Below, in pieces: positions 2,821 to 53,214 of a DNA stretch of 64,000 bases (position 1 is the stretch's first letter; each line of letters begins with the position of its first letter). The notes beneath the pieces are model-generated. The model did not search any database. It was not told where the DNA came from and saw nothing but the letters and a program-made list of their open reading frames with translations. Location: positions 1 through 64,000 of the forward strand of contig JAFQLQ010000028.1 of assembly GCA_017414505.1 (NCBI GenBank), read 5' to 3'. The DNA is from Clostridia bacterium (GTDB lineage: Bacteria > Bacillota > Clostridia > UMGS1840 > HGM11507). The position numbers and the translations under genes are program-made.

Positions 2821-3495
2821 TTGGAAAACGAATTAGAAAAAGTAGTCATAAGCAGGGCAGTTGTGCCGCACGATACGGAGCATTTTTTTGCTCAGGCAAA
2901 GCAGTTTGAAGAGCTTATGATGGTGTTTAACAGTGCCATAAAGGAAGTAAGAACAAAATTTGAAATATTAAACGATGAGCTTACGGTTACTCACAACAGA
3001 AGCCCCATTGAGGTTATAAAAACAAGAATTAAAAAGCCTCAGAGCATTGTAACCAAGCTTCAGCGAAAGGGTTATGAGGTTTCGATATCTTCTGTGCTTT
3101 ATAATTTGAACGATGTGGCAGGTGTGCGTATTGTATGTTCATTTATAGATGATATTTATGCCATTGCAGAAATGTTTGCAAAGCAGGACGATGTAAAAGT
3201 TATTCAGATTAAGGATTACATAAAAAATCCTAAAGAAAACGGCTATCGCAGTTATCATATGATAGTGGAAATTCCTGTTTTCTTTTCAAACAGAAAACAG
3301 CCCATTCGTGTGGAAGTGCAGATACGTACAATCGCAATGGATTTCTGGGCAAGCCTGGAACATCAGCTTCGCTATAAAAAGGATTATGAAAAAACCGAAG
3401 AAATCGAAAAAGAACTTAAAGAATGTGCAGAAGTCATTGCTCAGACCGACAGACGAATGCAGAAAATAAGAGAGAAAATAAATACAGAATTATGA
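2821..3495 (+). CDS. Small alarmone synthetase, RelA/SpoT-like (p)ppGpp synthetase
   Basis: 224 aa, consisting of a single RelA_SpoT synthetase domain. Supporting motifs are the SIVTKLQRKG basic stretch (~residues 81-90), VAGVRIVC (~100-107), ENGYRSYHM (~139-147, substrate tyrosine) and RVEVQIRTIAMDFWASLEH (~161-179). There is no hydrolase HD domain and no TGS/ACT region, so this is a RelQ/RelP-type enzyme making pppGpp/ppGpp from ATP and GTP/GDP in the cytosol. The start is TTG with AAGGAAAG upstream. Its stop overlaps the next start (ATGA), so it is co-translated with the folate enzyme. Confidence 0.88.
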   Translation: MENELEKVVISRAVVPHDTEHFFAQAKQFEELMMVFNSAIKEVRTKFEILNDELTVTHNRSPIEVIKTRIKKPQSIVTKLQRKGYEVSISSVLYNLNDVAGVRIVCSFIDDIYAIAEMFAKQDDVKVIQIKDYIKNPKENGYRSYHMIVEIPVFFSNRKQPIRVEVQIRTIAMDFWASLEHQLRYKKDYEKTEEIEKELKECAEVIAQTDRRMQKIREKINTEL

Positions 3496-50349: not shown

Positions 50350-50391
50350 TTGTCAAAAGGTCTTGAAATTTATGGATAAATAGTGTATAAT
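50350..50391 (+). promoter_or_regulatory. Promoter of the small hydrophobic peptide RNA, preceded by a recombinase half-site
   Basis: TTGAAA (50363-50368), 17-bp spacer, TATAAT (50386-50391). Directly upstream, TTGTCAAAAGGT (50350-50361) is identical to one arm of the recombination site at 51604-51629, but the opposite arm is missing. Confidence 0.65.
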
Positions 50392-50502
50392 ACAAATTGT
50401 CGGAGAAATCCGATGTTAAAGGTAAGACTGAAAACAGTGTAAAAGCTGGGCGGTTATGCCACCTTATTCCTGTACTTATAGTCGGGAAAGGAGGTGGTTA
50501 CA

Positions 50503-50577
50503 ATGGGAAAATTTATATTGAGAGTATTTATACTAACGATAATTTTTTTGATTGTACTTACGAAAAAAGTAAGATAG
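50503..50577 (+). CDS. 24-aa hydrophobic peptide, possible type I toxin
   Basis: MGKFILRVFILTIIFL, then IVLTKKVR: one membrane helix with a charged tail, the size and shape of type I toxin peptides. The ribosome site (GGAAAGGAGGTGG) is very strong. It sits on a short ~210-nt transcription unit with its own promoter and a terminator, and an oppositely oriented promoter lies just beyond. No homology to a named toxin family is claimed. Function as a membrane-active toxin is inference from architecture. Confidence 0.6.
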   Translation: MGKFILRVFILTIIFLIVLTKKVR

Positions 50578-50653
50578 CCCCCACCGACCAAAGTTAGGGC
50601 TATCTAAAAATAATCCTATTTTGGCATAACCGTTTGAGGTCTTGCCTTTTTCT
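50565..50653 (-). ncRNA. Putative antisense RNA overlapping the 3' end of the peptide mRNA
   Basis: A consensus minus-strand promoter would start an RNA near 50653 that runs leftward through the shared hairpin into the last codons of the 24-aa gene. The RNA would be ~90 nt and has no ORF with a ribosome site. This convergent layout resembles type I toxin-antitoxin loci such as par/Fst. Ends are estimates. Confidence 0.5.
50572..50605. terminator. Shared hairpin terminator of convergent small RNAs
   Basis: AGATAGCCC (50572-50580) pairs with GGGCTATCT (50597-50605). On the minus strand it is followed by TTACTTTTTT, and on the plus strand by AAAAATAATCC, so it is stronger leftward. Confidence 0.6.
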
Positions 50654-50659
50654 ATATTC

Positions 50660-50688
50660 ATTATACATCTTAAATCTGTATTTGTCAA
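50660..50688 (-). promoter_or_regulatory. Perfect-consensus leftward promoter
   Basis: Minus strand TTGACA (50683-50688), 17-bp spacer, TATAAT (50660-50665). There is no protein gene to its left on that strand. 50700-50865 otherwise holds only a hairpin AAGCTGTC/GACAGCTT (50807-50835) before the recombinase ribosome site. Confidence 0.7.
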
Positions 50689-50862
50689 CGGTTTTCAGGA
50701 AATTTAATAAATTTTTCGCAAATGGGTACTCATTTGCTGTGCTTGCTACCTGCCGAAAAGAAATATTGTCATTGTTCCGAATATAAAAATTTAATATTAT
50801 CATACCAAGCTGTCTTTTTCTGAAAGGGACAGCTTTTTATTTTGCAAAAAAGGAGGCTTTGA

Positions 50863-51468
<606 letters not shown>

Positions 51469-51494
51469 CTGTCATAAGGTACACCTTTTGACAG
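51469..51494. other. Putative recombination site L (26 bp, centre AC)
   Basis: Arms CTGTCATAAGGT and ACCTTTTGACAG (one mismatch from perfect symmetry) flank the dinucleotide AC at 51481-51482. The symmetry extends outward (AAAATAA / TTATTTT), so the same DNA can also act as the recombinase terminator. Confidence 0.75.
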
Positions 51495-51617
51495 TTATTT
51501 TATTATATCAAATTATACCACATATTTCCTTGAAAATCAATATTTTATTAAAAATATTGTAGAAAACAACGAAAAAAATTTTATTTAAATTTATCTTCCA
51601 GTATTGTCAAAAGGTGT
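51481..51617. other. Putative invertible promoter segment
   Basis: Segment between the central dinucleotides of sites L and R, about 137 bp, extremely AT-rich and without an ORF. It carries a leftward promoter (51512-51540). Inversion would place its start site near 51593, pointing right toward the surface protein gene, with ~146 nt of leader. In the orientation given here the promoter faces the 3' end of the recombinase gene. Confidence 0.7.
51512..51540 (-). promoter_or_regulatory. Promoter inside invertible segment, currently facing left
   Basis: Minus strand TTGATT (51535-51540), 17-bp spacer, perfect TATAAT (51512-51517). A weaker rightward candidate also exists: TTGACA from the right arm of site L (51488-51493), 17 bp, AATTAT. 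Confidence 0.65.
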
Positions 51618-51630
51618 ACCTTTTGACAAT
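51603..51630. other. Putative recombination site R (centre GT)
   Basis: Perfect 13-bp arms ATTGTCAAAAGGT and ACCTTTTGACAAT around GT at 51616-51617. GT is the complement of the AC at site L, so the two sites are in inverted orientation. Confidence 0.78.
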
Positions 51631-51654
51631 GTACGATAGCAGGGGGAAAACACA

Positions 51655-51681
51655 ATGAGAGTATTATATGATAGCGGATAG
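51655..51681 (+). other. Possible 8-codon leader ORF
   Basis: AGGGGG (51641-51646) precedes ATG and the codons for MRVLYDSG, then TAG. The frame is the same as the surface protein gene and stays open after the TAG up to its ATG at 51739. It is either a regulatory leader peptide or an old N-terminus cut by a stop. Confidence 0.4.
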
Positions 51682-51738
51682 GAATTTACTTTTGAGTATT
51701 TTAAAACGGATATAAAACAAAACGAAAGGAATTTTATT

Positions 51739-53214
51739 ATGAAAAGAAAATCATCATTAATTTTAGTATTAGCTTTAATACTTTCTACACTTTTTAGTAT
51801 AAATGCATATGCGGAGGAGTATCCCAATATATATTTCGATGGAGAAACTTTAAGAATAGAAAATTTTGATATAACTTTAGGGGAAAAATTATCAGAAAAG
51901 ATTGTGGAGGAAAAAGACGGGAAAGTGTACTCTGAAAGATATATCTATGATAATTATTCATGGACTGCAGATTATGATACTGCATTTAGTTTATACCTTA
52001 AATCGAACGGCTGGACAGATACTACTGATAGAAACGGGTCGATTTACGGAGGACCGACAACACTTTATCGTGCAACCTATTCTAAAGGTAATTACCAGAT
52101 ACAAATGGATGGCAGCCCATATGGTGACTCCTTTGAATTGAACTTTTTTGTTTCTTCAAGCCCTGATGATACAGTTAAGACTACTTATGAAGGATATAAA
52201 TATCAACCGTGTGGATATGGCTTGTGGCATACAGTAGAAAACGGCGTTCTTACAATAGGCGGAAATGTTGGTTTAACTAAATATGAAAATGAAAATCAAG
52301 TCATCACAGTAAATTTGAATGGCGAACTTTATAATTACATCAGTACAAGTAAGACACCTTGGTATGGTGAAAAAATAACAAAAATCATTCTTGAAAACGA
52401 TGTAACTGATATTGGGATGGGATTTGGAGAATTACCTGAACTTACCACAATAGAAATAAAGGGTAAGTTAAAAAAACTTCAATATACATCACTCTCAGGT
52501 TATCCTAATCTGAAAGAAATTCATTATGTCGGAACACAGGGTGAATGGAATAATATTTCTCAAAATATCAGTTTGCCGGAAAATATAATAATTTACTTTG
52601 GTGATGGAACAAAGATAGGAAAAACTGATGAAGAAAAAGAATCAGAAGGTTTATTAAAACAGCTTCGTATGACCATTGGCTCAACTGTAGGTAAATTATA
52701 CGGTAATGATTTTGTTATGGACGTGGCACCGCAAATTATTAACGGCAGAACAATGTTGCCTGCACGATATGTAACAGAAAATCTTGGCGGTGAAATAGAA
52801 TGGATTGGAGAGCATCAGATTGTTGCAATAACCAAAGGCTCAACTACTTTGCTTTTCAGAATAGGTTCTGATTCAGCAACCCTTCTAACAACTTCTGATG
52901 AATATGATGATTCCTTATATGATATAGTTGACGAACAGGCAGTTCAACTAAATGATATTGTTGCAAATTCCGAAGTCATTAATAATAATTATAGCTATGA
53001 TGAAAATATGGCGTTTGACTATTTAGATTATAAGTTTATAACAGATGATTATTATGGATATTGTGAAACATATTCAAAAGAAGTTCAGCTTGATTCTGCA
53101 CCTGTTTTGATTAGTGGAAGAACTTTTATGCCAGTTAGAGTAATTGCAACATTTTTAGGAGCAGATGTAATGTGGAATGGTACTACACAAACCGTTATGA
53201 TTGAACCAAAATAA
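51739..53214 (+). CDS. Phase-variable candidate: secreted LRR and copper-amine-oxidase-like stalk protein
   Basis: 491 aa. Signal peptide ~1-25 (SLILVLALILSTLFSINAYA). Residues ~30-145 are unrecognised. ~150-290 are BspA-like LRR repeats (ITKIILENDVTDIGMGF; LKKLQYTSLSGYPNLKEIHY). ~305-490 form a split copper amine oxidase N1-type domain (INGRTMLPARYVTENLGGEI ... ISGRTFMPVRVIATFLGADV). It is likely exposed on or released from the surface. AAAGGA precedes the ATG. No good rightward promoter is visible in the current orientation of the switch. Confidence 0.82.
   Translation: MKRKSSLILVLALILSTLFSINAYAEEYPNIYFDGETLRIENFDITLGEKLSEKIVEEKDGKVYSERYIYDNYSWTADYDTAFSLYLKSNGWTDTTDRNGSIYGGPTTLYRATYSKGNYQIQMDGSPYGDSFELNFFVSSSPDDTVKTTYEGYKYQPCGYGLWHTVENGVLTIGGNVGLTKYENENQVITVNLNGELYNYISTSKTPWYGEKITKIILENDVTDIGMGFGELPELTTIEIKGKLKKLQYTSLSGYPNLKEIHYVGTQGEWNNISQNISLPENIIIYFGDGTKIGKTDEEKESEGLLKQLRMTIGSTVGKLYGNDFVMDVAPQIINGRTMLPARYVTENLGGEIEWIGEHQIVAITKGSTTLLFRIGSDSATLLTTSDEYDDSLYDIVDEQAVQLNDIVANSEVINNNYSYDENMAFDYLDYKFITDDYYGYCETYSKEVQLDSAPVLISGRTFMPVRVIATFLGADVMWNGTTQTVMIEPK

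Follow-up and report, generated by a model that had tools for sequence, protein, structure and literature searches.

The window analysed here, a stretch of 64,000 nucleotides from a gut-type Clostridia bacterium, very probably (we estimate about 0.9, from sequence comparison) contains a self-contained phase-variation cassette in which a serine recombinase would flip the promoter of a gene encoding a secreted protein. Such a switch had been proposed from the letters of the window (the original prediction) and it is supported by related loci, in the form of co-changing site cores, a pair of loci in opposite orientations, contig breaks at the sites and a conserved promoter. In the proposed mechanism, the recombinase would bind two hix-like sites located 3' of its own gene, and these would pair directly across a loop of 135 bp (about 13 helical turns). 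Cleavage at the 2-bp cores would be followed by religation of the segment in the reversed orientation. At present a sigma-70 promoter with an extended -10 would fire towards the recombinase, leaving the target OFF; once flipped, it would drive transcription from near 51593 and turn the gene at 51739 ON. We infer that the window recombinase is active on these two sites, that the ON orientation expresses the 51739 gene and that the left-hand site terminates transcription in the OFF orientation.

The proposed DNA invertase is encoded at 50866-51468 on the plus strand, next to both sites. The predicted 200-aa small serine recombinase ending at 51468 was recovered at the same coordinates, with a match to Pfam Resolvase (4.8e-28). 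Its catalytic residues R8, S10, R45, D67, R68 and R71, assigned by alignment with gamma-delta, are invariant across 37 homologues. The AF2 model (pLDDT 82) comprises a catalytic domain, a long helix (107-144) and a C-terminal three-helix DNA-binding domain (helices 160-168, 174-181 and 185-199). The protein thus has the serine and Arg/Asp active-site set, the length (about 180-210 aa) and the domain layout expected of small serine recombinases, and is of the serine rather than the tyrosine type. PHROGs annotates it as a DNA invertase. The nearest solved structures are those of Sin and gamma-delta, the best Foldseek match in the PDB being gamma-delta resolvase (1gdt, 1.5e-13), and its score against the Mpi family model (NCBIfam NF009949), 45.9 bits, lies below the cut-off of 272 bits. 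As a correction to the label "Hin-type", the sequence is nearer to Sin and gamma-delta than to Hin or Gin.

Two elements were observed upstream of this gene. A terminator-like stem (AAGCTGTC..GACAGCTT followed by TTTATTTT) lies at 50807-50843, directly 5' of the recombinase Shine-Dalgarno sequence, and is a possible attenuator of recombinase expression. The region 50363-50690 has the look of a type I toxin-antitoxin system: a plus-strand promoter (TTGAAA-17-TATAAT) and a strong Shine-Dalgarno sequence precede a 24-aa hydrophobic ORF (MGKFILRVFILTIIFLIVLTKKVR) and a stem-loop, and a convergent promoter with a perfect 12/12 match lies on the opposite strand at 50688-50660 and reads antisense.

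Both predicted 26-bp palindromic sites, with their complementary AC and GT centres, were reproduced in position and sequence, each with a 12+2+12 organization. Site L (51469-51494; CTGTCATAAGGT-AC-ACCTTTTGACAG, core at 51481-51482) begins at the first base after the recombinase stop codon and has one arm mismatch. Site R (51604-51629; TTGTCAAAAGGT-GT-ACCTTTTGACAA, core at 51616-51617) is a perfect dyad. The sites are separated by 109 bp, or 135 bp from centre to centre. The inverted geometry of the original prediction stands, but the flipped length is slightly less than the roughly 137 bp suggested: 133 bp between the cores (51483-51615) would strictly be inverted. The site motif has two matches in the window and none in 100 shuffles of it, and these two are the only matches in the 2.38-Mb draft genome. 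Of 391 class genomes, 7 contain the strict motif and none its reversed control. A search of Rfam returned nothing relevant.

The segment between the sites contains one promoter and no gene. This promoter (TTGATT-17-TATAAT with an extended -10 TG; 51512-51540, minus strand) faces the recombinase, and the position weight matrix (PWM) score for the window likewise favours the OFF orientation (23.6 vs -12.5), in agreement with the predicted leftward promoter and present OFF state. A simulated flip moves it to 51558-51586 with a start near 51593, again as foreseen. The arrangement is that of an inverton: a promoter inside a segment bounded by inverted sites and upstream of a gene. An EM search over 63 related loci converged on one promoter matrix (TTG[AC]-17 bp-TATAAT, extended -10 TG), whose distance from one of the sites is constant. 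Orientation is clearly OFF, with the promoter towards the recombinase, in 45 loci and clearly ON in six.

A weaker rightward promoter-like sequence (TTGACA-17-AATTAT, 51488-51516, plus strand), also noted in the original prediction, is indeed present, but its diagnostic base is neither conserved nor enriched in the family. It was rejected as an independent promoter, being built from a site arm and the reverse complement of the real -10, and is probably a by-product, which could nevertheless make the OFF state leaky.

The gene that would be switched (51739-53214, plus strand) had been described as encoding a secreted LRR/stalk protein. The secreted look is borne out by a signal peptide recognized by inspection; the BspA-type LRR match (LRR_5) is only sub-threshold, and two copper-amine-oxidase-N1 domains (Cu_amine_oxidN1) are present. 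No homologue of this gene was found among 290 class genomes. Between site R and the gene, about 26 nt past the site, lies an eight-codon ORF (MRVLYDSG, 51655-51681) with an AGGGGG Shine-Dalgarno sequence; in relatives the first gene usually starts at a similar distance from site R. Possible readings of this ORF are a leader peptide or a relic of an earlier target.

The cores provide comparative evidence. A scan with the recombinase yielded 80 bacterial loci at 68-77% identity, nearly all labelled Clostridia, together with 13 viral loci; in the nearest relative of the same architecture the recombinase is 77% identical. When two sites were sought 3' of each recombinase without regard to the core dinucleotide, 63 loci gave a pair, and the cores were complementary in all 63, compared with a maximum of 44 in 20,000 permutations (GT/AC 42, AC/GT 16, AG/CT 2, and TT/AA, AA/TT and AT/AT one each). 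A motif-agnostic search of 66 further, held-out loci, from which pairs scoring at least 44 were kept, gave complementary cores in 24 of 24, each scoring higher than any of three shuffled versions of its region; divergent outer half-sites were frequent in this set (TACAG, TTCGG, TTTGC). A tree built from the recombinases of 83 loci, many of its forks weakly supported, requires at least 22 changes of core and at least 40 changes in the number of helical turns between the sites. Concerted core change in two separate palindromes is the signature of inversion sites used by serine recombinases.

The same data bear on the idea that the sites serve plasmid or element resolution rather than promoter switching. 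The best sequence and fold matches of the enzyme are indeed to Sin (Tn552 bin3) and to the gamma-delta/Tn3 resolvases, which have the closest solved catalytic domains. The substrates of resolvases are res sites in direct repeat that include accessory subsites. Neither feature was seen at the cassette: the cores are in inverted register in 87 of 87 loci of the two sets together, with directly repeated, res-type crossover sites in none. A resolution role, which also fits poorly with a segment that holds a promoter and no gene and with inversion as the outcome in relatives (the loci L038 and L076, below), is extremely improbable and was dropped on account of the inverted sites.

Other arrangements were encountered during the scan. 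A phage contig with terminase genes (L006) carries a complete GT/AC pair at 801-960, with a spacing of 127 bp (12 turns), and a distant recombinase gene at 3001, so that this pair is possibly switched in trans. In another locus (L046) a broken site separates the recombinase gene from a further family member in tandem with it. On a Staphylococcus haemolyticus plasmid (L097), cfr and transposase genes flank a recombinase with 55% identity; resistance plasmids thus carry members of the wider recombinase family as well, there in a different role.

The distance between the paired sites is quantised in helical turns, a new observation. Spacings cluster at 104-107, 123-127, 135-139, 145-148, 156-158, 165-170 and 176-179 bp, with nothing in the gaps, and correspond to 10 and 12-17 turns of 10.5 bp; the 135 bp of the window is in phase at about 13 turns. 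The best-fitting period was 10.45 bp for the first set; the held-out loci gave 10.50 bp (V-test p=1e-6, or 5e-5 with each length counted once). Phasing persists after clustering of the recombinases, with a Rayleigh p of about 1e-10 for 47 at <80% identity and of 7.5e-5 for 24 at <75%. None of the 79 spacings below 200 bp departs by more than 3 bp from a multiple of 10.5, the mean deviation being 1.11 where 2.63 would be expected; regularity is lower among the four longer spacings (223-325 bp). This count omits a locus with a run of N (L043), a duplicate (L004), three loci with a weak second site (L061, L064 and L066, at 136, 135 and 125 bp, which are in phase too) and a decayed copy (L091), in which a deletion has taken the promoter part of the segment and left an out-of-phase spacing of 91 bp. 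The simplest reading would be direct synapsis of the sites across a stiff, short loop. On that reading, with a loop below the DNA persistence length, segment length might evolve only by whole helical turns.

Evidence for inversion itself comes from relatives. The recombinases of L038 and L076 are identical at 185 of 197 positions (94%) and their outer flanks are collinear, but the intervening segments can be aligned only when one of them is inverted (score 61 vs 7.5; null maximum 23). The comparison of related genomes suggested in the original prediction did reveal both orientations. In the isolate Anaeromassilibacillus An200, contig C118 begins inside site L and contig C88 ends inside site R; neither includes the segment between the sites. 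Since the sites, at about 26 bp, are shorter than the usual assembly words, mixed orientations are the likeliest cause of these breaks, and the clonal culture, as judged from the contig ends, would most likely be a mixture of both. Three further contigs from metagenome-assembled genomes (MAGs) end within the inner arm of site L, and a viral contig with a site pair and no detected recombinase (L199) breaks off at the final base of the second one.

The window itself was assembled without a break in a single orientation. This lack of visible heterogeneity, together with the arm mismatch in site L and the existence of a relative as decayed as L091, might indicate a formerly active cassette that is now locked and no longer flips in this genome. 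Such a remnant is unlikely, given an intact window recombinase with all its catalytic residues, a perfect dyad at site R, in-phase spacing and a promoter near consensus. A cassette still capable of switching remains the preferred reading.

Site L may have a second role. It lies within an extended palindrome (51462-51501; AAAATAACTGTCATAAGGT-AC-ACCTTTTGACAGTTATTTT) that is terminator-like on both strands in the OFF orientation, the window hairpin reaching about -19 kcal/mol on either strand. Over the 45 clear OFF loci, the site L hairpin averages -13.7 kcal/mol, as against -8.1 after in silico inversion. Its tails are T-rich in both directions (3.96 and 4.31 of 8, vs 2.40 of 8 at site R), with a p of about 1e-5 that, like the other terminator p-values, is optimistic because the loci are related; part of this T-richness may come from an A-rich initial transcribed region or from lysine codons at the end of the recombinase gene. 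Site L thus looks like an orientation-dependent two-way terminator. In the OFF orientation it would keep read-through from the recombinase gene out of the target and protect the recombinase gene against antisense transcription; in the ON orientation the terminator would weaken, so that orientation would feed back on recombinase expression. Antisense silencing of the recombinase in the OFF state was considered and is less likely, because the leftward side of site L has T-rich tails too. Precedents exist in CwpV, where a terminator specific to the OFF state lies at the left repeat (PMC2784873), and in fimE, where the switch is biased by an orientation-dependent terminator past the recombinase gene (cited in PMC2784873).

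Since site L folds into a terminator-like hairpin flanked by T-rich tails, the palindromes might instead be operators or terminators of the recombinase gene only, with the enzyme acting elsewhere, the more so as some homologues, mostly phage-borne, have no recognisable site pair. This is very improbable: it would leave unexplained why the complementary cores of separate palindromes change together, why spacing follows the helical turn, why L038 and L076 are flipped relative to each other and why contigs end at both sites, and the draft genome contains no further copy of the site on which the enzyme could act. The palindromes are more readily understood as inversion sites, one of which may double as a terminator.

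The cassette of about 0.9 kb (recombinase, sites and promoter) is portable, near-identical copies preceding unrelated genes. When 60 recombinase pairs sharing 82% identity or more were compared, the downstream proteins of 54 had no detectable similarity. The DNA shared in most compared pairs extends from about 15-130 bp 5' of the recombinase gene to approximately the end of site R or shortly after, some 0.8-0.9 kb. Downstream products include BspA-type LRR, SLH/S-layer, InlB B-repeat, VWA, SPFH, acyltransferase and lipoprotein-like proteins. Within one family, taken to be Lachnospiraceae, 299 species were sampled and the cassette was found in 75 of them (recombinase E<=1e-60). Neither recombinase nor site motif was found in the relatives searched from the family of the window genome, and the recombinase is absent from all eight order relatives, making horizontal gain of the cassette by the window genome likely.

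Invertons of this kind are already known. Hin/hix of Salmonella (and Gin, Cin and Pin) likewise combine a small serine recombinase with inverted 26-bp dyad sites, a 2-bp core and a flipped promoter, and the outer half-site TATCAAAA is probably common to hix and the cassette sites. The Hin gene lies inside its roughly 1-kb invertible segment. In the cassette, by contrast, the recombinase gene lies outside the segment, and a distance of just 135 bp, in fixed helical phase, separates the sites. Inversion by Hin requires a 65-bp enhancer bound by Fis (PMC3798978); the short distance leaves little room for an enhancer loop, and the cassette is presumably enhancer-independent. The Mpi serine recombinase of Bacteroides fragilis flips short promoter segments upstream of surface genes (PMC5903667), at 13 or more scattered regions compared with the one local pair of the window recombinase. 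Short invertible regulatory segments are also found in Clostridia (inverton group 139, the RecV switches of C. difficile, CwpV). However, these rely on tyrosine recombinases (PMC11892184, PMC5903667), including the published Clostridia inverton group tied to a named invertase (PMC11892184), and the CwpV promoter is outside its segment whereas that of the window is inside. The fimS/fimE system of Escherichia coli shares an invertible promoter and an orientation-dependent terminator after the recombinase gene, but uses tyrosine recombinases, a 314-bp segment and a Rho-dependent terminator. Hin and Mpi are thus functional analogues, and the cassette is a distinctive Clostridia variant. Its site sequences were not found in print in the article texts searched, and individual members may have been detected earlier. 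A more ambitious view, to which we give somewhat less than even odds, is that of a large, portable, enhancer-free family of Clostridia promoter switches, with direct synapsis across a loop below the persistence length and site L doubling as an orientation-dependent two-way terminator.

Invertible promoters of gut bacteria are usually tied to tyrosine recombinases or to Bacteroides Mpi; here the switch would be a compact, cis-acting serine-recombinase cassette. Such cassettes provide a small collection of orthogonal invertases and sites, and their spacings form a natural data set on the limits that DNA stiffness and twist place on recombination across loops below the persistence length. Since about 0.9 kb contains recombinase, sites and promoter, and the sequence reveals the orientation, phase variation becomes predictable in uncultured Clostridia.
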